Source: Spirochaetaceae bacterium (GTDB lineage Bacteria > Spirochaetota > Spirochaetia > DSM-27196 > SLAA01). From it: a stretch of DNA of 46,247 nucleotides. The position numbers and the translations under genes are program-made. Numbering within the stretch: the first letter of the stretch is position 1; each line of letters begins with the position of its first letter. The notes beneath the pieces are model-generated. The model searched no databases, was not told the origin of the DNA, and saw nothing but the letters and a program-made list of their open reading frames with translations. The stretch covers positions 1-46,247 of the forward strand of contig PWQX01000242.1 of NCBI GenBank assembly GCA_003556605.1, read 5' to 3'. Below, piece by piece: positions 22,934 to 44,976 of the stretch.

Positions 22934-23707
22934 ATGAGGCTGTACGTTAGGGAATTCGGCAGCGGCGCACCGTTTGTGATGTTGCACGGTCTGTTTGGTA
23001 ACGGCGAAAATTGGCGCTCAATCGCGCGGCGCTTCTCGGATAGCTTTCGGATACTGCTGCCGGACCTGCGCAATCACGGGGACTCGCCCCACGCCCCGAG
23101 CCTTGAGTTGGAAGAAATGGCCAATGACGTGGTCGAAACGGCCGACAATCTAGGGGTAGAGCGCTTCGCACTATTGGGGCATTCGTTGGGCGGTAAGGTT
23201 GCCATGACCGTCGCGCTGCGGCACCCCGATCGGGTTCAGGCGCTGGTGGTGGTTGATATAGCGCCGCGCACCTATAAGGCATCACACGAGGCGATTGTGG
23301 ACGGTATGCAGGCTGTGTTGAATCAATCGGTGACCTCCCGCAAAGAGGCTTATGCAGTCTTGGCCGAATACGTTCCGCATGCTTCGGTGCGCGGTTTCTT
23401 GCTGAAGAGCTTAACGCGGGCACCGACGGGTGAGTATCGCTGGAAATTGAACCTAAAGGCGATACAATCACACTATCGAAGCATGATACAGTGGCCGATT
23501 CGCAAAGCGGTCTATAGCGGGCCGACCCTTTTTGTAGCAGGAGAGCAGTCGGGGTACGTTAGCCCCGATCGCGATGCAGACGTCATTCGCGATTTGTTTC
23601 CGAACGCAGTACTTGAAGTAATACCGAAGACCGGCCATTGGTTGCACTTCGAGCAGCCCGACGAGCTTGTGCGGAGGTTGGATGTATTCTTCACTCGGAA
23701 CATTTGA
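22934..23707 (+). CDS. alpha/beta hydrolase (YbfF-like esterase)
   Basis: 257 residues. HGLFGNGENW is the oxyanion region, GHSLGGK contains the nucleophilic serine and GHWLHFEQPDEL the catalytic histidine near the C-terminus; LPDLRNHGDSPH is typical of the YbfF/esterase subgroup. CGGAG, overlapping the previous stop, serves ATG 22934. Physiological ester unknown. The last 26 bases overlap the debranching enzyme. Confidence 0.9.
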   Translation: MRLYVREFGSGAPFVMLHGLFGNGENWRSIARRFSDSFRILLPDLRNHGDSPHAPSLELEEMANDVVETADNLGVERFALLGHSLGGKVAMTVALRHPDRVQALVVVDIAPRTYKASHEAIVDGMQAVLNQSVTSRKEAYAVLAEYVPHASVRGFLLKSLTRAPTGEYRWKLNLKAIQSHYRSMIQWPIRKAVYSGPTLFVAGEQSGYVSPDRDADVIRDLFPNAVLEVIPKTGHWLHFEQPDELVRRLDVFFTRNI

Positions 23708-25865
23708 GACAACACGCAGCGCGCACGCGCTGCCGGGTCCCATTACCCGTGGACGACCGAAGCCGCTGGGGGCGGCAGCGGATGCGCATGGCACGCAGTT
23801 TGCCGTCTTCTCACGTCATGCGACACGGGTGTCGCTGTTGCTCTACGATCATCCCGAGCAGGAGCTCCCTAGCGCCGAGGTAGTATTCGATCCGCAGTTG
23901 CATCGCACCGGGGATATCTGGCACATGCATCTCGCCGGAGTTCACCCGGGTCAGCTGTACTTATATCGGGTAGACGGGCCGTACGATCCTGAACAGGGTC
24001 ACCGCTTCAACCGCCACAAAGCGTTGATAGACCCGTATGCACGCGCCCTGACCGGTCGTTTTGTTCACGATGTGCACGCTGCACTGGGCTATGACCCACG
24101 GTCTCCGGATGCCGATCTCTCGTTCTCGGAGGAATCCAGCACAGCGGCCGTGCCGAAATGTGTGGTGATCGATGAAGATTTCGACTGGGAAGGGGACGTC
24201 CCGCTCAATATCCCGCTACGGGAGACAGTGGTGTACGAGGCGCACGTGCGGGGTCTAACCCAGCATGCGAGCGCCGGGGTGAGACACCCGGGAACGTATC
24301 GTGGGGTGGTTGAACAGATTCCGTACTTGCGCGAGCTCGGCATCACCAGTCTCGAGCTGTTACCGGTGCAGGAGTTCAACGAATACGAAATCGGCCGGGT
24401 AAACCCCGCTACCGGCAAGCTCTTACAAAACTACTGGGGCTACAGTCCGCTCGCGTTTTTCGCTCCCAAGGCGGGCTATGCCGCCTCGCGAGAGCTTGCC
24501 GGACCGGTAAACGAGTTCAAGTTCATGGTGCGCGAGCTGCACAAGGCGGGAATAGAGATCATTCTCGATGTGGTGTTCAATCATACCGGCGAAGGTAACG
24601 AGCTTGGACCTACGTACTCGTTCCGCGGACTAGACAACAGCATCTACTATATCCTGGATCACAACAGACGCTACTATCGCAACTTCTCGGGTTGTGGAAA
24701 CACGGTGAACTGCAATCACCCTATCGTGCGGCAGCTCATTCTCGACTGTTTGCATTACTGGGTGATGGAGATGCATATCGACGGGTTCCGGTTTGACCTC
24801 GGCTCTATCTTGGGGCGCGACAGCGCCGGAAACCTGATGGATAACCCTCCGGTTCTGGAGCACATCGCTCAAGACCCGATTCTCCGTAATACAAAGCTTA
24901 TCGCGGAGGCTTGGGACGCGGCTGGGGCGTATCAAGTCGGCTGGTTCCCGGGCGGCCGCTGGGCGGAGTGGAACGACAAGTTTCGGGACGATGTGCGCAA
25001 GTTCTGGAACTTCGAACATGGTGACGCGGCCCAGCTTGCGACACGCTTGAGCGGCAGCGCAGACCTGTATCTTCGCGACGGGCGTAAGCCGTTCCACAGT
25101 ATCAATTTCGTTACCTCGCACGACGGGTTCACGTTGTACGACCTGGTGAGCTACAGCAAGAAATACAACTACACCAACGGCGAGAACAATCGCGACGGGC
25201 ACAATGCCAACTACTCGCACAATCACGGCATAGAGGGAGAGACTAAGGATTCGCAGGTCAACAGGCTGCGTATGCGCCAACGCAAGAACCTCATCGGGAC
25301 GCTGCTGCTTTCGCAGGGGACACCGATGCTGCTCGGTGGTGACGAACTCGGGCGCACGCAGCATGGCAACAACAACGCCTACTGCCACAATGACGAGACG
25401 GTCTGGCTCGACTATCGCGGCCTGCGACACGACGGTGAGTTTCTACGCTTCTTTAAAGCGATGATTGCGTTCCGCCGCCGGCATCCAGCTTTACTGCGCG
25501 GTGAGTTTTTCACCGGTGAAGACCGTGACTCCGACACGCTGCCTGACATCGTCTGGCTGGACCCCGAAGGGAGATCGGTTGACTGGACCACTGCCGGCGG
25601 GCGGCTCGCGGTGCGCATAGACGGTGGCGGCCTCGAGGAACAGACTGAGGGTAACGACGATGACTTGCTACTGCTGTTCAATGCCGACAGACAACCGGTA
25701 TCGTTTCTGCTGCCGTCTGGCGGCCGATGGGCGCGGGTCATCGACACCGGTTTAGCTCCTCCGGAGGACATTGTGCCCGAGGCGGAGGCGCATATCTTCG
25801 ACGGTGGCGAGCGCTACCGGGTCTGCGGGAAAGGTTTGGCGGTGTTCCTCGAACATCGCGGTTGA
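23682..25865 (+). CDS. glgX: glycogen debranching enzyme (GlgX/isoamylase type, GH13)
   Basis: Hydrolyses alpha-1,6 branches of glycogen or limit dextrin. 727 residues from ATG 23682, set by GGAGG four bases upstream. N-terminal CBM48-like domain, then the GH13 barrel: DVVFNHTGEGNE (region I), GFRFDLGS with nucleophile Asp372, acid/base Glu409 in LIAEAWD, and His480-Asp481 in TSHDGF. C-terminal beta domain completes it. No signal peptide, so it acts on cytosolic glycogen. Overlaps the hydrolase gene by 26 bases. Confidence 0.95.
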   Translation: MYSSLGTFETTRSAHALPGPITRGRPKPLGAAADAHGTQFAVFSRHATRVSLLLYDHPEQELPSAEVVFDPQLHRTGDIWHMHLAGVHPGQLYLYRVDGPYDPEQGHRFNRHKALIDPYARALTGRFVHDVHAALGYDPRSPDADLSFSEESSTAAVPKCVVIDEDFDWEGDVPLNIPLRETVVYEAHVRGLTQHASAGVRHPGTYRGVVEQIPYLRELGITSLELLPVQEFNEYEIGRVNPATGKLLQNYWGYSPLAFFAPKAGYAASRELAGPVNEFKFMVRELHKAGIEIILDVVFNHTGEGNELGPTYSFRGLDNSIYYILDHNRRYYRNFSGCGNTVNCNHPIVRQLILDCLHYWVMEMHIDGFRFDLGSILGRDSAGNLMDNPPVLEHIAQDPILRNTKLIAEAWDAAGAYQVGWFPGGRWAEWNDKFRDDVRKFWNFEHGDAAQLATRLSGSADLYLRDGRKPFHSINFVTSHDGFTLYDLVSYSKKYNYTNGENNRDGHNANYSHNHGIEGETKDSQVNRLRMRQRKNLIGTLLLSQGTPMLLGGDELGRTQHGNNNAYCHNDETVWLDYRGLRHDGEFLRFFKAMIAFRRRHPALLRGEFFTGEDRDSDTLPDIVWLDPEGRSVDWTTAGGRLAVRIDGGGLEEQTEGNDDDLLLLFNADRQPVSFLLPSGGRWARVIDTGLAPPEDIVPEAEAHIFDGGERYRVCGKGLAVFLEHRG

Positions 25866-35878: not shown

Positions 35879-36358
35879 ATGCAACCCCAGTCTGTAGACT
35901 CGTTCTACCACGCGCTCAGGAGTCCCATATTCCTCTCTGCATTCTTCAGCTGGTTTATTGCACAGCTTCTGAAAGCCATGATCGACGCGGTCTGGCACCG
36001 TAACAGAACCTCACGCGAAGTAGTGGTTACGCTGTTTTGGGCTACCGGCGGCATGCCGTCGTCTCACTCCTCGTTGGTCACCGCGTTGGCAACCGCCATA
36101 GGTTTCGAGTACGGTCTGAGCTCGCCGCTGTTTTCGTTAGCGCTGTTTTACGGGATGCTCGTGATTCGAGATGCACTCGGTGTGCGACGCGCGGCCGGAA
36201 CGCAGGCCCAAGCAATCAATCGGATGGGTCGTAAACTGCAAGAACAATTGGCGGTGGAGTATGAACCGGTACAGGAGGTTCATGGGCATACACCGGCTGA
36301 GGTTTCGGTAGGTGTGCTTCTCGGGTTTTTCATCGCGGTAGCTTTTAGTCTGTTGTAG
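35879..36358 (+). CDS. divergent PAP2 family protein (DUF212)
   Basis: 159 residues, four membrane helices. The GGMPSSHSS stretch and the following VTALATAIG helix are the family hallmark, related to acid phosphatase/lipid phosphatase PAP2 but with an altered active site; activity is uncertain. The ATG has no Shine-Dalgarno; TTGACA at 35852-35857 with a CACACT 17 bp on would make the transcript nearly leaderless. The next gene begins 28 bases later. Confidence 0.88.
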   Translation: MQPQSVDSFYHALRSPIFLSAFFSWFIAQLLKAMIDAVWHRNRTSREVVVTLFWATGGMPSSHSSLVTALATAIGFEYGLSSPLFSLALFYGMLVIRDALGVRRAAGTQAQAINRMGRKLQEQLAVEYEPVQEVHGHTPAEVSVGVLLGFFIAVAFSLL

Positions 36359-36386: not shown

Positions 36387-38126
36387 ATGCGAGCTGACTC
36401 GTGGCTTAGCTTCAACAGCGTAGTGCTCTTATTCGTGGCGTTCGTACTGGTCGCCGTTGTGGTAGCGGCGAGGCAGCTTCCGGAGACCGTACCGCACAAC
36501 AGAATCTGGGAGGGGTATTCGATTCTCCTTGTTGAGCGGGAAGTATCCTCGGAAGCTGTGACGCGGGCTTTGAAAGACGAGGGAGTCACGGGGGTTATCT
36601 CTCACAGCACTGTGGAAGTGCGGTACAACGATACCGATCGTATGGGATCGGTTCCGTTGTCTGAAATGGATCAGCGATTTCTCGACTACGATCCGCGACT
36701 GGACCCCTACATGCGTTCGCTCTCCTCGTACTTTGTCACCGCCGACGCCGAGCGCGAGTACGCTATCTACTATCTGAGCGATTCGCAAAAGCGGCGGCTC
36801 ACGCGAATGGTTGAGGATGCGCTTGCGGGCATTCATGCCGAGTGGCGATTCGCCGATAGGAGCCCGCTGGAGGCTCGGTTTCTCCCGGTGCTGTTCGGGC
36901 TCACGGCAGCGCTCGTGCTGCTCTATCTGCGCACCCCCTCGATTGCGCTGGTGCTCACAGCAGCGCTACTCGGTATACAGCTGACACGAGTTGGCCCCGG
37001 TGTGTTGTTTGCCGCAACCATACTATACCTCTTGTGGGCGCTGCTGTTGCACCAGTTGGACATCTACCTTCCGCACGCCTTAAACCATCGCGAGACGGTC
37101 CGCCCCATCGCCCACTGGGTCCCCCGGGCGGCGTTCTCGGTGCCGGTCATCGCCACAGTGCTGCTGTACGGCTACCGCATAGACGGCGGTCCGGCCGCGC
37201 TCCTGCACGTTGCCGTGGTATTGGTTATCTTAGCCGCAACTGCCGCGGGGTTGGTCTCAGCAGCTACACTGAAGCACAGCCGTCACGAGCATCGTTTGTT
37301 TGTTCCAGTTACGATCGTACCGGGCGGTCCTCGACGAATCCGGGTGTTGTTTGGTGCTCGTTCGGCGGCGTTACGGTTCAATCGGCGCGATCAAGGTGCA
37401 GTGAAAGCAAAGCTAGCACGGCTTGTGCGTGAACTACGCCTGCGTGGTTCGGGTTTCGGGCTGTGGGTGCGTGATGCTGCAGTAGACTGGCCGGTAGGCA
37501 TTGCACGCCTTGCCGGTGTAGCGCGATTACTACTACCGGTCGCCATCGCTGTCTTGGTGGTGGTTATCTTGCGCACCGCCTGGCTGCCGTCCGGCACGGC
37601 AGTACCGGTGCCCACGCCGATTGCGGTGACGGAAGCCGAGACCTTATCGTACGACTCCCTAGAGCGGCTTGAGGAACGTCGCCCGGCCGGCGGCTTGCCC
37701 GATCTTGCAGTGTATCTCACTCATAGAGCGCATCAAGATGGGTTTATGTACGGCCGGGAGTTTCGTTTTCCCGAGCGTGACGAAGAGCTTACGCGCCAAC
37801 GCTACGTTCGGACTGAAGACGGGATCGGTAGTACTACAGAGGTTGCAATACGATTCGATGAGGAATGGCGTGAGGCGGTTTGGTCGGCGGTTCCCCTTGG
37901 GTCACCCATGCAGTTATTGCTTACACAGGACAAAGCCGTCGGGGTTGTATTCGAATCCTCCCCCGCGCTATACTCCGCTCGCTCTACTGTGCTGCGGCAC
38001 GGCGCTCTTGTGCTGCTGGTGTTTGTCCCGTTTCTCTTCTCCTCTCTGTTCGCATTTCAGTCAATGCCGGGGCATGCGCATAGCGCTCATAGAACGGTAG
38101 GACAGGAGAGGGACCAAGACGCATGA
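36387..38126 (+). CDS. large multi-pass membrane protein of unknown function, coupled to rnfC
   Basis: 579 residues. One N-terminal helix (about 11-29), an extracytoplasmic domain (30-165), a block of about four to six helices (166-297), a basic soluble region (300-375), a helix (about 378-403), a second extracytoplasmic domain (405-530) and a last helix (about 533-555). The reading frame overlaps rnfC by four bases (ATGA type), implying joint translation. No Fe-S, flavin-attachment or ATPase motif is visible. Unrecognised; the context suggests an accessory to the Rnf-type proteins (inference). Confidence 0.75.
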   Translation: MRADSWLSFNSVVLLFVAFVLVAVVVAARQLPETVPHNRIWEGYSILLVEREVSSEAVTRALKDEGVTGVISHSTVEVRYNDTDRMGSVPLSEMDQRFLDYDPRLDPYMRSLSSYFVTADAEREYAIYYLSDSQKRRLTRMVEDALAGIHAEWRFADRSPLEARFLPVLFGLTAALVLLYLRTPSIALVLTAALLGIQLTRVGPGVLFAATILYLLWALLLHQLDIYLPHALNHRETVRPIAHWVPRAAFSVPVIATVLLYGYRIDGGPAALLHVAVVLVILAATAAGLVSAATLKHSRHEHRLFVPVTIVPGGPRRIRVLFGARSAALRFNRRDQGAVKAKLARLVRELRLRGSGFGLWVRDAAVDWPVGIARLAGVARLLLPVAIAVLVVVILRTAWLPSGTAVPVPTPIAVTEAETLSYDSLERLEERRPAGGLPDLAVYLTHRAHQDGFMYGREFRFPERDEELTRQRYVRTEDGIGSTTEVAIRFDEEWREAVWSAVPLGSPMQLLLTQDKAVGVVFESSPALYSARSTVLRHGALVLLVFVPFLFSSLFAFQSMPGHAHSAHRTVGQERDQDA

Positions 38127-39469
38127 AACTGATCCATACGTTTTTGAAAGGTGGGGTGTTCCCGCCGGAGCACACGCGAACGGCTCGAGACGCAGCGACT
38201 TGGAATGCGATGATTCCGGCTCGGTGTGTTGTGCCTCTCTTGCAACACTCCGGTGTTCCGGCGCGGCGAATTGTACAGCGCGGGCAGCGCGTCAATGAGG
38301 GTGCGATCATCGGTGCTGCACGGGCGTACGAGAGCGCGCGGGTGCACGCCCCAATCCCCGGGGTGGTGAGCGAGATCATACAGCTTACCCTGGCCGACGG
38401 CCGACAGAGTGAAGCGGTGGTTATCGAGCTCGACGGTGAGTTTCAACAGCTCGGCAGATCGATAAAGCCGCGTGATTGGCGGCGGCTCAAGAATCGGCGA
38501 ATTTACGAGCAGATTTCTGATGCAGGCGTCGTTGGGCTTGGTGGCGAAGGAGTCCCGAGCCACACCAAGTACGTACTCCCGAAAACCGCAGCGGTTGAAT
38601 GGCTGATCGTTAACGGGTGTGAGTCCGAACCGTATCTTTCGAGCGAATACCGGCTTCTGCGTGAGCGGCCGCAGCAGCTGGTAGAGGGCATCCAGATCTT
38701 GATGCGCCTGTTGTCACCCAAACGAACCGTGATCGCGTTGGCCGGTCACACTCGCTCTGCAGTTTCGGGTTTACGAGGGGCGGTTGCCGCTGCCCGATCA
38801 CGTATTCAGCTGCAGCGACTCGCCGGTAAGTACCCGCAGGGGGATGAACATACGCTCGTGGGCTCGGTTGCCGGACGGGCGGTGCGTGGAGCCGCAACCG
38901 TTGCCGATGCCGGTTGCATGGTCATCGATGTTGCGACCGTATTGGCCATGTACGAGGCGGTTTTGCTCGGTAAACCACTGGTAGAGCGGACCGTAACCGT
39001 CAGCGGCGGTGCTATCGCACAGCCCGGGAATCTAAAGGTGCGCCTTGGCGCTTCAATCGGCGATCTGATCGAGGAATGCGGAGGATTCTGCGCGGCTCCG
39101 CGCAAGCTGGTAGTGGGTGGACCAATGCGCGGACACGCAGTCACTGATCTGACGCAGCCGGTAACCAAGCTGACCTCGGCGGTTTTGGCGTTGACCGAGG
39201 AAGAGCTGCAGAGCGTCGGGCAAACCGCGTGTGTGCGCTGCGGCCGTTGTGTACGAGCATGCCCCATGGGGCTCGAACCGGTGATGCTGCACTTGCTGAT
39301 CGCGCAGCATGATTGGCGGGCGGTAGTCAAGGCGGGAGTCTTTGACTGCACCGAGTGCGGATGCTGCGGGTTCATTTGCCCATCGGGTATCCCGCTGGTC
39401 GATCAGCTAAAACAGGCGAAATCCCAGATTCGACGAGAGGAGCACGAGGACGGTGAACGAGCGCACTGA
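38123..39469 (+). CDS. rnfC: Rnf electron transport complex subunit C
   Basis: 448 residues. N-terminal domain and the GLGGEGVPSHTK glycine loop of the NADH/FMN-binding Nqo1-like fold, followed by the SEPYL segment; two 4Fe-4S motifs near the C-terminus: Cys370/373/376/380 and Cys409/412/415/419. RnfC is the NADH-oxidising entry subunit of the Rnf Na+/H+-pumping ferredoxin:NAD+ oxidoreductase. Overlaps the upstream membrane protein (4 bases) and rnfD (17 bases). Confidence 0.94.
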   Translation: MKLIHTFLKGGVFPPEHTRTARDAATWNAMIPARCVVPLLQHSGVPARRIVQRGQRVNEGAIIGAARAYESARVHAPIPGVVSEIIQLTLADGRQSEAVVIELDGEFQQLGRSIKPRDWRRLKNRRIYEQISDAGVVGLGGEGVPSHTKYVLPKTAAVEWLIVNGCESEPYLSSEYRLLRERPQQLVEGIQILMRLLSPKRTVIALAGHTRSAVSGLRGAVAAARSRIQLQRLAGKYPQGDEHTLVGSVAGRAVRGAATVADAGCMVIDVATVLAMYEAVLLGKPLVERTVTVSGGAIAQPGNLKVRLGASIGDLIEECGGFCAAPRKLVVGGPMRGHAVTDLTQPVTKLTSAVLALTEEELQSVGQTACVRCGRCVRACPMGLEPVMLHLLIAQHDWRAVVKAGVFDCTECGCCGFICPSGIPLVDQLKQAKSQIRREEHEDGERAH

Positions 39470-40574
39470 ATTGAACACCTCTCGGCTGATCGTCGCCGGG
39501 AGCCCGCAGATTCACGATGCACTGTCAACCACGAAACTGAACTGGTTGGTGGCGGCTGGGGTGGCGCCGGCCGCTCTATGGGGGTTTATCCAGTTTGGCC
39601 TGCCGGCTGTGACGGTGGTTTTGGCGGGGGTCGGTGCGGCCGCGCTGACTGAGGCCGTTCTCCCAAAGAGAGTGGGCAGCGTGCGCGACGGAAACGCAAT
39701 CCTCATCGGCTTGCTTATGAGTCTTATGTTTCCACCCGCCGCGCCGTGGTACTTGGCGGCGGTATCGGCCGTGTTTGCGGTGGGGATCGTGAAATGGGCC
39801 TTCGGAGGTCTCGGTCACGCGATCTTGAATCCTGCGGTCGCCGGGCGTGTTCTGGCGCAGGTCTTAGCTCCGCAGGAGATGAGCCGCTACGCGATTCCTT
39901 TAGCTCTCGGCGGCGGCGAGTTTGAGCATGGTGCCACGGCGGTGATGGCGGTGCGCTCGGCGGCCGGCAGCGTTGAGCCTTTGCAGCGTTTGCAGGAGCT
40001 CGGCTATCCGCGTTCGGTCCTTGATCAAGCGGTGACCGCATGGCTGAACGAGCACCTGTTCGAACCTGTGGGTGTTGTGTTACCAAGCGGGTACGTTGAT
40101 CCGTTTATCGGTTTAGCCCCGGGCGGGATCGGCGAAACCTCTGCGCTCTTGCTATTGGTAGCAAGCGCTGTGTTGCTGGGCCGGCGGGTGATTTCGTGGC
40201 AGGTGCCGTTGGCATTTTTCGCAGGGTTCGCCGCCGCAATCGCAGTCTGGGGCTCAGTTGCGTTCGGCGGTGTGGCATTGCGGGGAGATGTGCTGTTCCA
40301 TTCTCTGCATGGTGGTGTGCTGTTCTTGATGTTTTTCTGTGCAACTGATAACACTGGTGCTCCGGCAACCGGCAACGGGATGGTGCTGTACGGTCTCGCT
40401 GCCGGTGTCTTGGCGGCGGTATTGCGGCTTTTCGGATTGTACGCGGAAGGTTTAGCGGTAGCGGTTTTGGTGGTCAGTTTCTTCGTGCCGCTGATAAACC
40501 ACGTTACGAAACCCGCCCGCTTTGGATTCTCCCGGCGTAGGCGCAAGCCTTTGCTTTACAAACCACGTGGGTGA
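39453..40574 (+). CDS. rnfD: Rnf electron transport complex subunit D
   Basis: 373 residues, GTG start with AGGACG upstream. About ten membrane helices. ILNPAVAGRVLAQ and the DNTGAPATGNGM block are typical of RnfD/NqrB. The HGATAVMA stretch contains the GAT of the covalent-FMN motif (usually SGAT), so flavinylation is possible but its first residue is changed. The usual partners rnfG, rnfE, rnfA and rnfB do not follow. Confidence 0.93.
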   Translation: MNERTELNTSRLIVAGSPQIHDALSTTKLNWLVAAGVAPAALWGFIQFGLPAVTVVLAGVGAAALTEAVLPKRVGSVRDGNAILIGLLMSLMFPPAAPWYLAAVSAVFAVGIVKWAFGGLGHAILNPAVAGRVLAQVLAPQEMSRYAIPLALGGGEFEHGATAVMAVRSAAGSVEPLQRLQELGYPRSVLDQAVTAWLNEHLFEPVGVVLPSGYVDPFIGLAPGGIGETSALLLLVASAVLLGRRVISWQVPLAFFAGFAAAIAVWGSVAFGGVALRGDVLFHSLHGGVLFLMFFCATDNTGAPATGNGMVLYGLAAGVLAAVLRLFGLYAEGLAVAVLVVSFFVPLINHVTKPARFGFSRRRRKPLLYKPRG

Positions 40575-40583: not shown

Positions 40584-40664
40584 CGACGCCGTCTCGTTGT
40601 AGAGTTCCGATTCAGTGCCTGGTGAGTGGTTGAGTGTGCGTCAAACCGAGCGGGATTACCTATA

Positions 40665-42749
40665 ATGAAGAGAGTGAAGTTGGTGTTCGGCACCAGCAAC
40701 AGCCAACCGGTTGGGACCAACGAAGAAGAGTTGGAGCGGGTGTACCAGCGCGCGTATAAGCCGTTTATCCGCACGCTGTATAACTTCGCTGAGGTTCCGA
40801 TTACACTGCACTACTCCGGGACGTTGTTCCAATGGCTAGAGAATAACCACGCTGAGTTTCTCGATGTGCTCGCCGAGATGGGTGGGCGTCGTCAGATCGA
40901 GTTCCTCGGGGGCGGCTTTTACGAGCCGGTCCTGCCGATGATTCCGCATACCGACCGCATTGGTCAGATAGAACAAATGACGACTTTCGTGCGCAAGCGC
41001 TTTGGCCGCCGCCCGCGCGGTACATGGATCACTCAGTTGGTGTGGGAGCCATCACTTCCATCGGCGTTGAAAAACAGCGGCATGGAATACACGTTTCTCG
41101 CCGATTATCACTTCATCTCGGCCGGCCTCGCGCAGGATGCTTTGTACCGTCCCTGCATCACCGAAGATCAGGGCAAGACCGTCGTGGTGTTCCCGATCTG
41201 CAAACGCACCCGCTGGAAACTCATGATCGAGAGTCCCGAAGAGGTGATCGAACATCTGCGCGCGCTCGCCGACGATGACCCGCAATCCGTCGTCGTGATG
41301 CTCGAAGAGGGTGAACGGTTCGGCGCCGGCGAAGAGAGCTATCGTATTTGCTATCGCGAACAGTGGCTTGAGCGTTTTCTCACCTTGGTTGGCGAAAACG
41401 GGGATTGGCTCGAGCCGATACACCCGGGGCGTTATCTCAAACAGGTGACTCCGCGCAGGCGAGCCTACTTCCCGGCTACGTCCTACGAAGACATGATGCG
41501 CTGGGCGCGGCCGGTTGCGCGCCGGAAGGCCGGTCACGGAAGCTCGCGTGCCGGCGAGCACGCGTACGCGCACGCGCGTAACGGGTTTGTCTCCGGCGGC
41601 TTCTTCCGCCAGTTCTTGACTCGCTATCCCGAGAGTAATCTGATGTACGCAAAGATGCAGTACACGCATATCTTGGTGAACCAGATCCGCGGGGACAAGT
41701 ATCGCAAACAGGCCGCCCGAGAAGAGCTGTGGAAAGGACAATCCCATCACGCCTACTGGCACGGTCGGCCGGGGGGGATCTACGTCAATCAGTTGCGCAA
41801 GCAGGTGTACAGCGCGCTGATTGAAGCGGAGAAAGTTACGCGCGAGAAGGGCATCTTTATTCCCTCGATTGTCGCCGTGGATTTCGATATGGACGGTGTG
41901 CTGGAATACCTGTATCAGGGGCAGGAGATGAACGCATACGTCCACACGCACGGGGGCACGTTGTTTGAGCTCGATTATCTGCCGGTTGCGTTCAACTACT
42001 TGGATACTCTGTCACGCCGGGTTGAGGCGTACCATGACAATGAGGTTGTAGGGTACGGATACGATCGCTATTTGCGCAAAGCATTTGTCGACCATTTTTT
42101 CTCTCCTGGTCTCACCGTCGACCAGTTTGCACGCATGCAGCATCGCGAGCTTGGCAGTTTCGTCGATGCAGTCTATACAGTCGAGAAGCACGACCGTGAG
42201 CATCACTGGATTCAGTTGCAAAGCAGCGGCACGGTCGAGCGCGAACCAGGGAGAATTGCGGGAGCAGATGATGCCGCTGTGGAACTCGGAGTGGAGTCCG
42301 CAACTGAGCAGCCGGTTAGGCTCGAGAAGCACTACAGTTTCAACGCTGCCGAAGTGACGGTTCAGTATCGAATTACGACTACCGGTGAACCGCTTAAAAC
42401 CACTTTCGCTTGTGAGATTAACATCTCGGTTGCCGACGCCGCCGACGGCACGCTACTGATTGCGTGCACCTCGGATGCTGAAGACGCGCACGATATTCCG
42501 TTAGAGCTTGCCTCGGTAGACCGGTGTAGCGAGGTTCGGCTCTATGACGAGCTTAACCGCACCGTCATTACGCTTGCGGCTTCTCAGGAGGCCCGGCTAT
42601 GGAGCATCCCGGTGGAGACCTACGCTATGTCGGATGACAGGGTGAAAGCGCAGTTCCAACAGCTCAGCTGCGTGTATCACTGGGATATCACGCTGTCGCC
42701 GGATGAAGCGTGGGAGGCCACCGTTCGATTGCGCTGCGATCGGTTTTGA
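40665..42749 (+). CDS. GH57-family glucanotransferase-like protein, probably catalytically inactive
   Basis: 694 residues from ATG 40665, with the domain order of the thermophile 4-alpha-glucanotransferase (GH57 barrel, helical middle, C-terminal beta domain, about 400-694). The family's opening His-x-His-Gln-Pro is SNSQP (11-15), so both histidines are serine. The nucleophile segment T-E-R-V-W is T-Q-L-V-W (Gln124) and the acid/base segment H-D-D-G-E is L-E-E-G-E (213-217). The scaffold, including the LADYHFISAGL motif and FGGGFYEPVL-type block, is otherwise well conserved. I infer a pseudoenzyme, possibly a glycan-binding or regulatory protein. No signal peptide. The in-frame GTG at 40626 is less likely. 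Confidence 0.85.
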   Translation: MKRVKLVFGTSNSQPVGTNEEELERVYQRAYKPFIRTLYNFAEVPITLHYSGTLFQWLENNHAEFLDVLAEMGGRRQIEFLGGGFYEPVLPMIPHTDRIGQIEQMTTFVRKRFGRRPRGTWITQLVWEPSLPSALKNSGMEYTFLADYHFISAGLAQDALYRPCITEDQGKTVVVFPICKRTRWKLMIESPEEVIEHLRALADDDPQSVVVMLEEGERFGAGEESYRICYREQWLERFLTLVGENGDWLEPIHPGRYLKQVTPRRRAYFPATSYEDMMRWARPVARRKAGHGSSRAGEHAYAHARNGFVSGGFFRQFLTRYPESNLMYAKMQYTHILVNQIRGDKYRKQAAREELWKGQSHHAYWHGRPGGIYVNQLRKQVYSALIEAEKVTREKGIFIPSIVAVDFDMDGVLEYLYQGQEMNAYVHTHGGTLFELDYLPVAFNYLDTLSRRVEAYHDNEVVGYGYDRYLRKAFVDHFFSPGLTVDQFARMQHRELGSFVDAVYTVEKHDREHHWIQLQSSGTVEREPGRIAGADDAAVELGVESATEQPVRLEKHYSFNAAEVTVQYRITTTGEPLKTTFACEINISVADAADGTLLIACTSDAEDAHDIPLELASVDRCSEVRLYDELNRTVITLAASQEARLWSIPVETYAMSDDRVKAQFQQLSCVYHWDITLSPDEAWEATVRLRCDRF

Positions 42750-42772: not shown

Positions 42773-43717
42773 TCAGCGCAGGCCCTCGGTCGCGGACGGT
42801 CTCTCATCGATGCTCAGAATGGTGTTGAGCCACGGTTGTACTTCTTGGTACAGCTGCGGCTCGGCTAAGAGAAAGCTCATAAACGCTTCGCGAGGCCGGT
42901 CTTGGAAATACAGCGTCTGCCCTAGGTAGAACAGGGCGCGGGCGCGCACCTGCGGTTCTTCAAACACCGAGTAGAGATTTCGAAGCTCCTGCTCAGCCTG
43001 CGCCCATTCGCCGCGCGGGAATCGCGCCGTCACGATCCGGGCCAGAGTTGTCTCGCGGCCTTTGGCCCGTTCTGTATTCTCATCACGCTCAAAGGGCAGG
43101 ATCTGAGGCGTAAGGGGCGAGGGTGGTTCTGTATCCGGCGCACGGCGAAGCAGCGTTTCGAAAGCCGGCTTAAGCTGTTCGGACAACGGCTGAGAAGGCT
43201 CGTGTTCCTGCAGTGCTCTGTAGACCATGGCGTCGCTCTCGAGTTGTGGAATCACTAAGAGCTTCGGCAGCGGCACGCGGCGGAGCATCGGCGGTTGCGG
43301 CGTCTGAGGAACGTGTATATCGCGGTCTAACGGTACTGTAATCGGGTTGATGGTGCGATTGCGCCCGGGTATCAAGCGCCCATCGCCGCGCTCCAGTCGA
43401 TCGATCGCCATAACTGCGTAGTAGTACGGCAAGCCGGGGGGCGGGTGATCGAAATGGACGGATTCGGTAGCGGGTGTTACCGCGATACGAATCGCATCTT
43501 CCAGGTCCTCGAGAGCGGCAATCGGGCGACTGCGCCGGTAGATTACGTAAGCGGCCTTGGAGTCGCTTGGACGAAACTCGATACGCACGCCGTCCTGCCC
43601 GTGCTCTGTGACCATGAGGTCTAGAACCTCTGGAGTGATCGAGTTGGCCGACACTTGAACAACGGAGATCAAGATGAGCATGCCGAAAACGACAGGCGAT
43701 CTATAGAAAGCCACCAT
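42773..43717 (-). CDS. secreted protein with FN3-like and TPR-like regions
   Basis: 314 residues from ATG 43717. Signal peptide (1-24, VVQVSA then N). An FN3-like beta domain (about 30-125: VIYRRSRPI, PYYYAVMAID), a proline-rich middle, and a helical TPR-like C-terminus (about 240-300: QAEQELRNLY, ALFYLGQTLYFQD). No ribosome site precedes the ATG; the promoter below places transcription start at the ATG itself, so a leaderless mRNA is likely. Convergent with the GH57-like gene. Function unknown. Confidence 0.75.
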   Translation of the reverse strand: MVAFYRSPVVFGMLILISVVQVSANSITPEVLDLMVTEHGQDGVRIEFRPSDSKAAYVIYRRSRPIAALEDLEDAIRIAVTPATESVHFDHPPPGLPYYYAVMAIDRLERGDGRLIPGRNRTINPITVPLDRDIHVPQTPQPPMLRRVPLPKLLVIPQLESDAMVYRALQEHEPSQPLSEQLKPAFETLLRRAPDTEPPSPLTPQILPFERDENTERAKGRETTLARIVTARFPRGEWAQAEQELRNLYSVFEEPQVRARALFYLGQTLYFQDRPREAFMSFLLAEPQLYQEVQPWLNTILSIDERPSATEGLR

Positions 43718-43722
43718 ATCAG

Positions 43723-43751
43723 TATATATCGGCGGGGTAGGGAGTTGTCTA
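43723..43751 (-). promoter_or_regulatory. promoter of the 42773-43717 gene
   Basis: Minus strand TAGACA (43746-43751), 17-bp spacer, TATATA (43723-43728). The predicted transcription start coincides with ATG 43717. Confidence 0.5.
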
Positions 43752-43856
43752 CAGCTTCCCGGCCCATCTTCAGGCCGGCGGCCGCGGTGAGGTGGTAGAA
43801 ACGTTTGCTGGAAAAGAATACACTGAGCTATTAACGCATATCCCCTGGAGGCCCGC

Positions 43857-44976
43857 ATGGCAGAGGAACTTCGCGAGTCGATCGCAGCGCTCAAGACTCA
43901 AATCCTAGACGCCTGGAGGCGTCTTTGACCCGGAACAACTACAGCAGGAAATCAGAGAGCTAGAACGCCAGAGCGCTAACCCTCAGTTATGGAACGACCG
44001 CACACAGGCTGAGCGTACCCTGACACGGCTCAATCAACTGCGCACCCGTCTCGATCCGTGGCAGGAGCTTGTGGAACACGTTGAGGAGCTGGAAGAGCTT
44101 CTCGAGCTTGCCATCGAAGAAGACGACGACTCGGCGGCCGAAGAAGTTGAGCGAGGTCTTGCCCAGGCGCGCAAGACCTTCGCGGAACTGCAATTGCGCG
44201 AGTTATTCCAAGATGAGATTGATTATTCCGACGCCTACCTGACGGTGCATGCCGGCGCGGGCGGGACTGAAGCGTGCGATTGGGTGAGCATGCTGTTGCG
44301 AATGTACTTGCGCTGGTGCGAATCGGTTGGGTACAAGACCAGAACTCTAGATATGCAGGAAGCCGAGGGCGGGGTTAAGTCGGTGACGATTGAGGTATCC
44401 GGAGAGCTGGCGTTCGGTTATCTGCGTGCTGAGACAGGGATTCACCGTTTGGTTCGCATCTCCCCGTTCGATTCCGGAGCCCGGCGGCACACCTCGTTTG
44501 CCTCGGTTTATGTCTCGCCGGTCATCGATGACACAATTGAGTTCGAGGTCAGGCCCGATGACATCAGGGTCGATACCTACCGCGCAAGCGGTGCCGGTGG
44601 TCAACACGTCAATAAGACCGACTCAGCGGTTCGGATCACTCATTCGGAAAGTGGTATTGTAGTACAGTGTCAGAATGAGCGCAGTCAACATAAGAACAGG
44701 GATATGGCGATGAAAATTCTCCGCTCACGGCTGTACGAGTACTACCGTGCCGAACGTGAACGTGAGCAGCAGAAGAACGCTCAAGAGAAAAAGGATATCG
44801 GCTGGGGGAACCAAATCCGCTCGTACGTCTTTCAACCGTATACGATGGTGAAGGACCACCGTACGAAACACGAAACCGGAAACATTCAAGCGGTGATGGA
44901 TGGCGACATCGGCGAGTTCATCGAAGCATATCTGCATTTCGGTACCGCACCCCAGTCGGCGGATGCTCGATCGTAA
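43857..44976 (+). CDS. prfB: peptide chain release factor 2 (programmed +1 frameshift)
   Basis: Terminates translation at UGA and UAA. 372 residues after frameshifting: 23 codons from ATG 43857, then TGA, then 349 codons in the +1 frame. GGAGG (43847-43851) precedes the ATG. The stop-recognition SPF tripeptide lies in RISPFDSGARR and the catalytic GGQ in ASGAGGQHVNKTDSAV. Length normal for RF2. The ATG shown starts the zero frame; translated without the shift only 23 residues would be made. Confidence 0.97.
43915..43929 (+). promoter_or_regulatory. prfB autoregulatory frameshift site
   Basis: GGAGG (43915-43919) acts as an internal Shine-Dalgarno three bases before CTT-TGA-C (43923-43929), the same layout as in E. 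coli. Low RF2 makes ribosomes pause at TGA and slip forward by one base. Confidence 0.95.

Follow-up and report, generated by a model that had tools for sequence, protein, structure and literature searches.

A GH57 4-alpha-glucanotransferase-like protein that has lost its catalytic residues is encoded in the class Spirochaetia at the end of a conserved block of rnf-derived genes, and this dead enzyme has probably been recruited as a cytosolic, non-catalytic partner of a Rnf-derived membrane complex specific to the Spirochaetia. The association of the GH57-like gene with rnf genes is well supported. The protein was studied in a stretch of 46,247 nucleotides from a Spirochaetaceae bacterium (contig PWQX01000242.1 of assembly GCA_003556605.1; hereafter the window), where it comprises 694 amino acids encoded on the forward strand at positions 40665..42746.

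This ORF matched three Pfam models (PF03065/PF09094/PF09095), namely Glyco_hydro_57 (2e-40, 139 bits against a cut-off of 21.2), the AmyA/glucT middle domain (8.5e-22) and the C-terminal domain (3e-37), and in a phmmer search its only PDB match was 1k1w, the 4-alpha-glucanotransferase of T. litoralis (TLGT; E = 1.4e-95). An AlphaFold2 model built from an alignment of 46 relatives (pLDDT 91, pTM 0.91) superposed on 1k1x with a TM-score of 0.94, an rmsd of 2.6 Å and 31% identity. Sequence and predicted fold both place the protein in family GH57 with an intact scaffold, in agreement with a preliminary description of the gene, made from the sequence alone, that had called the scaffold otherwise preserved. 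The start ATG at 40665 agrees with the starts of homologues, and an in-frame GTG lies at 40626. The N-terminus, MKRVKLVFG, contains no signal-like segment, which is consistent with a cytosolic site.

The alignment with 1k1w located the replaced residues in the conserved motifs, all read on the forward strand. CSR-1 (40689..40712) is GTSNSQPV where TLGT has GIHNHQPL, so that H-N-H-Q-P becomes S-N-S-Q-P, with serines for H11 and H13 at residues 11 and 13. In CSR-3 (41022..41051; TWITQLVWEP), the nucleophile E123 aligns to Q124 (codon CAG), and in CSR-4 (41289..41324; VVVMLEEGERFG), H212-D213-D214 aligns to L213-E214-E215, the change of the acid/base D214 to Glu being conservative. These losses, from which the preliminary description started, were borne out, and a fourth was found beyond its three, D354 being replaced by His in CSR-5 (41736..41765; GQSHHAYWHG compared to AQCNDAYWHG in TLGT). 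CSR-2 (40890..40928; RQIEFLGGGFYEP) is the best-kept motif. The window protein thus shares the full-length fold and domain order of TLGT (PDB 1k1w/1k1x/1k1y), though H11, H13, E123, D214 and D354 are all replaced, and where an active GH57 4-alpha-glucanotransferase has a catalytic Glu in CSR-3 and Asp in CSR-4, it has Q124 and E215. The S-x-S-Q pattern, the conservation of which had been raised together with that of Q124, proved common to the genus of the window organism, whereas many other residues occupy those positions in the wider clade. Q124 is private to the window genome. Since the four same-genus relatives (L004-L007, 76-78% identical) have Glu and CAG is one base from a Glu codon, Q124 could be a recent step, perhaps of private decay, or else a consensus error in the fragmented assembly.

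Homologues were sought in 296 genomes of the phylum Spirochaetota only and were found in 156, and 55 sequences from the class Spirochaetia were compared with a canonical set of 23, made up of TLGT and 22 homologues from the rest of the phylum. H11, H13, W120, E123, D213, D214 and E216 were all present in each of the 23 canonical homologues. The combination of H13, E123 and D214 was present in 23/23 of these versus 0/55 class members, among which H13 was retained in 15, E123 in 20 and D214 in 13. In the tree, the class Spirochaetia sequences formed a single, fully supported clade with a long stem, apart from the canonical enzymes. State changes on this tree numbered seven at H11, five at H13, four at E123 and nine at D214, as expected if catalysis ceased to matter before the lineages split. 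Compared with the remaining enzyme-invariant columns, the catalytic ones showed no excess of losses in the clade (p = 0.17), and the loss at three separate motifs, which had been put forward as a sign of selection, does not serve as such an argument.

The GH57-like protein is under strong purifying selection. Unsaturated pairs gave an overall dN/dS of 0.05-0.11. The barrel (0.02-0.06) and residues 266-400 (0.005-0.03) scored below the C-terminal domain (0.08-0.22), the lowest values falling in the barrel and the helical domain. RnfD (0.16-0.18) and mem (0.27-0.33), encoded in the same block, showed higher dN/dS than the former catalytic domain. Full-length ORFs without internal stops were found in the genomes examined. 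Furthermore, fixation in the clade and not in the enzymes was seen at nine positions, in TLGT numbering E103, T106, R110, R115, G169, K170, Y327, E381 and R385, and in window numbering E103, T106, R110, R116, G170, K171, Y328, E389 and R393. The dN/dS values, the class-wide full-length ORFs and these clade-specific constrained positions sustain the earlier view of a selected pseudoenzyme rather than a decaying gene, on grounds other than those first offered.

In the window, the GH57-like gene is the last of five genes on the forward strand, in the order DUF212, mem, rnfC, rnfD and GH57-like. The block opens with a DUF212 (divergent PAP2) gene (35879..36358; PF02681, 6.5e-42). It is followed by mem (36387..38126), which overlaps rnfC by 4 bp and encodes a membrane protein that is polytopic and, in its AlphaFold2 model, has two alpha/beta domains outside the membrane. 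RnfC (38123..39469; TIGR01945, 5e-128) has two 4Fe-4S motifs and a Gly-rich nucleotide motif, and rnfD (39453..40574; PF03116, 1e-71) ends 90 bp before the ATG of the GH57-like gene. Downstream, a convergent gene for a TPR-containing protein (42773..43894, reverse strand) is a frequent neighbour outside the operon. The mem protein had no Pfam match, and in a fold search against the PDB no structure reached E ≤ 0.001, the weak matches being of RND/SecDF-like and PII/CutA-like kinds. The family is very divergent (14-48% identity), with both extramembrane domains confidently modelled, and is recognizable by its position between DUF212 and rnfC. A scan for promoters and terminators returned no more than shuffled sequences did.

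The neighbourhoods of the homologues were scanned with profile HMMs made from the window genes and a canonical rnf operon. The class-wide arrangement was DUF212-mem-rnfC-D-G-E-A-(B)-GH57-like, with the GH57-like gene last, and mem HMM matches lay at the equivalent place in most class loci. After removal of two duplicate loci (contigs identical to those of G001 and G004), a rnf gene stood directly upstream on the same strand in 46/55 class genomes, mostly at a spacing of -45 to +160 bp. In three others (G134 and two MAGs), mem was directly upstream with no rnf gene adjacent, and in the remaining six the gene was unlinked. The Rnf genes found elsewhere in G134 were only a canonical Rnf and a Nqr-type copy. 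Outside the class, none of the 23 canonical homologues was linked to rnf, the upstream sequence covered being only 1.5 kb for many of them.

The linked block resembles canonical Rnf (rnfCDGEAB), as known from Clostridium tetanomorphum (PMC9588780), in gene order and subunits, though it adds mem, DUF212 and the GH57-like gene and has lost most cofactor sites. Of the six canonical subunits (C, D, G, E, A and B), only C and D adjoin the GH57-like gene in the window. RnfD proteins from GH57 loci, that of the window among them, fell on one side of a branch (support 99) that set them apart from every other Rnf/Nqr RnfD, even those encoded in their own genomes; most class genomes have a canonical Rnf elsewhere, which in the window genome is represented by C-D-G-E-A on contig C289. 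In C. tetanomorphum, iron is bound by invariant cysteines of RnfA and RnfE (Cys25/113 and Cys26/109), and threonines of RnfD and RnfG are the sites of covalent FMN attachment (PMC9588780). Most GH57 loci lack the RnfA/E cysteines, the RnfG and RnfD FMN threonines and the RnfC nucleotide motif. All four RnfA/RnfE cysteines were present in about 6/32 GH57-linked loci (L078, L102, L105, L113, L115 and L125), the RnfG threonine motif occurred in canonical-like GH57 loci only, and the RnfD motif, found in 19/19 RnfDs encoded elsewhere, was degraded in most GH57 loci. The Gly-rich nucleotide motif of RnfC was lost except in canonical-like loci and the genus of the window organism, whereas the two 4Fe-4S motifs were kept in 36/36 RnfC proteins of GH57-linked loci.

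Five or six class GH57 loci retain the Rnf cofactor residues. In L102, L113, L115, L116, L125 and L078, most of these residues are kept beside a degenerate GH57 protein, and these loci are useful cases for the question of how the GH57-like protein relates to a redox-active Rnf. A linked loss, in which an intact Rnf would go with an intact GH57 enzyme, was rejected on account of L113, L115, L116 and L125, where a canonical-like Rnf accompanies a degenerate GH57. The window genome also carries a further Rnf-like operon on contig C207 (L092:1108-5366), separate from the GH57 block, which encodes a Fe-S protein, a RnfD-RnfG fusion in which the SGAT motif occurs twice, and versions of RnfE/RnfA that lack the usual cysteines.

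One genome (G060) was taken as that of Treponema pallidum because one of its proteins matches T. pallidum TroA (1toa) over 291 residues with 633 bits. Genome-wide, it had no match to Rnf-Nqr (PF02508) and a single weak RnfD match, located in the GH57-linked locus (L097:2431-9013), where RnfD, RnfC and remnants of G, E and A are followed by the GH57-like gene, which overlaps the A remnant by 45 bp. Its RnfC has intact 4Fe-4S motifs and no nucleotide motif, and the Rnf-like genes lack the RnfA/E cysteines and the FMN threonine motifs of RnfD and RnfG. The GH57-like gene is presumably TP0147, judging from locus-tag order; a literature search found no paper on TP0147. T. pallidum flavinylation is said to be the subject of a 2015 mBio paper. 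For this species, a flavin-dependent RNF of noncanonical type has been put forward (PMC7512555, citing the 2015 paper). The only Rnf-like genes of the genome are those of the GH57-linked locus, though they lack the residues just listed and end in a GH57-like gene, which the accessible text of the accounts of the noncanonical RNF does not mention. As far as the sequences can tell, a normal Rnf pump in T. pallidum is unlikely, and some electron transfer by these genes is compatible with them.

Considering these results, we propose the following course of events. A single recruitment at the base of the class Spirochaetia would have placed the gene of an active 4-alpha-glucanotransferase last in a second, paralogous rnf operon, with which it may be co-transcribed. 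Catalysis would then have been free of selection, and the catalytic residues would have been lost piecemeal in separate lineages, while the barrel and helical domain stayed under strong purifying selection and would have gained the residues fixed in the clade. Most likely, the barrel is a cytosolic subunit that, without any catalysis, has a docking or accessory role in a membrane complex of mem and RnfC-RnfD, possibly in contact with these proteins, which remnants of RnfG/E/A/B would join in other genomes. In most lineages, this complex would have given up the ion-pumping electron path and retained the ferredoxin-like end of RnfC, and its role in the cell may lie in redox sensing, or in anchoring or regulating an envelope process. 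Since the gene persists in a few genomes where rnfC/D of the locus do not, its true partner may be mem, an unseen factor or nothing in the locus.

The preliminary description had suggested that the protein senses or binds glycans and regulates a glgX-type pathway. As an explanation of the class-wide locus, an inactive pocket that informs the Rnf-derived complex of carbohydrate status by binding a sugar, whether alpha-glucan or other, is unlikely. The fold is intact, and the most conserved parts of the protein are E79 (54/55 class members) and W126 (55/55), both on the old active-site face, together with the CSR-2 motif KQxExLGGGFYEP, to which E79 belongs. The substrate-side columns H11, H13, W120, W221, W357 and D354, however, are mostly unconserved in the clade, glycogen genes showed no conserved association with the gene, and it is retained in T. 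pallidum, which is not known to make glycogen. Regulation of a glgX-type pathway found no support in the locus either, because the gene probably meant, a GH13/CBM48 isoamylase of GlgX type (23667-25865), lies 15 kb off and is not adjacent, and in the class as a whole the neighbourhood conserved around the GH57-like gene is one of rnf genes. An active 4-alpha-glucanotransferase paralogue, the search for which had been suggested, did not emerge in the window genome. The only other GH57 gene found there is of the branching-enzyme type (C-terminal domain PF09210; contig C130, L096:3081-4718) and lies near a methyltransferase-like gene.

Alternatively, the GH57-like gene might be kept beside rnf by operon inertia and work alone, functionally independent of the Rnf-derived proteins, and we regard this as quite improbable. 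The gene does persist without rnf neighbours in G134 and in L043-L046, standing alone in L043/L045, and in G010, G146 and G292 it is not beside the block. However, the linkage has held across very deep divergence (end branches in the clade measure about 0.5-2 changes per site), some loci have overlapping genes (-45 to -3 bp), and a DUF212-mem-C-D-E-A block is still present elsewhere in the last three of these genomes (L137-L139), which are three of the six unlinked ones. In the eroded locus of G292, rnfC is broken into two ORFs (L137:8696-9972), possibly by a frameshift or as a pseudogene.

Residual or new enzyme activity, with members that have both E123 and D214 acting as slow glycosidases or transferases or with the pocket shifted to another reaction, is very doubtful. 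Both residues occur together in 6/55 class members (L014, L016 and L043-L046), the genus mates of the window organism carry E123 with Glu at 214, and, given the invariant or nearly invariant W126 and E79, ligand binding or even chemistry may survive. Yet H13 is absent from every member with E123 and D214, no alternative set of acids and histidines is conserved clade-wide, and the nucleophile of the window protein is Gln. Lastly, a decaying pseudogene, as the lost catalytic residues might suggest, is hardly credible and is refuted as a general account by the low dN/dS (0.05-0.11) and the full-length open frames.

With these alternatives weighed, recruitment of the dead enzyme to the Rnf-derived complex can be set beside earlier work. 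GH57 '4AGT-like' proteins without catalytic residues, 63 bacterial sequences in all, have been described (PMC6037648); they belong to the same subfamily and show the same type of loss, so that, going by that description, the catalytic loss in the window protein makes it a member of an already known sequence class. The Spirochaetia clade probably overlaps this group, though the main text of that paper mentions neither spirochaetes nor rnf as their context and offers no locus, selection test or function for them. A literature search returned no record of the link between GH57 and a Rnf-derived locus, of the class-wide conservation of the block or of its erosion, and no paper was found for GH57 together with pseudoenzyme.

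Taken together, we tentatively suggest that the Spirochaetia may possess a dedicated non-pumping complex made of a redox-eroded Rnf paralogue (RnfC-D with remnants of G/E/A/B), mem and a dead GH57 barrel, which would be the only 'RNF' of T. pallidum. The class-wide conserved locus, that of the syphilis spirochaete included, would then represent an electron-transport machine and a sugar enzyme apparently stripped of their chemistry and reused. The GH57 '4AGT-like' proteins, which the main text of their description presents only as catalytically incomplete sequences, gain a genomic home and a testable set of partners. The finding also bears on the energy supply of T. pallidum, for which a 'noncanonical RNF' has been invoked that, by sequence, is without most of the cofactor sites defining Rnf; if our proposal is true, Rnf-driven energy conservation in this organism would not proceed via a normal ferredoxin/flavodoxin:NAD ion pump.
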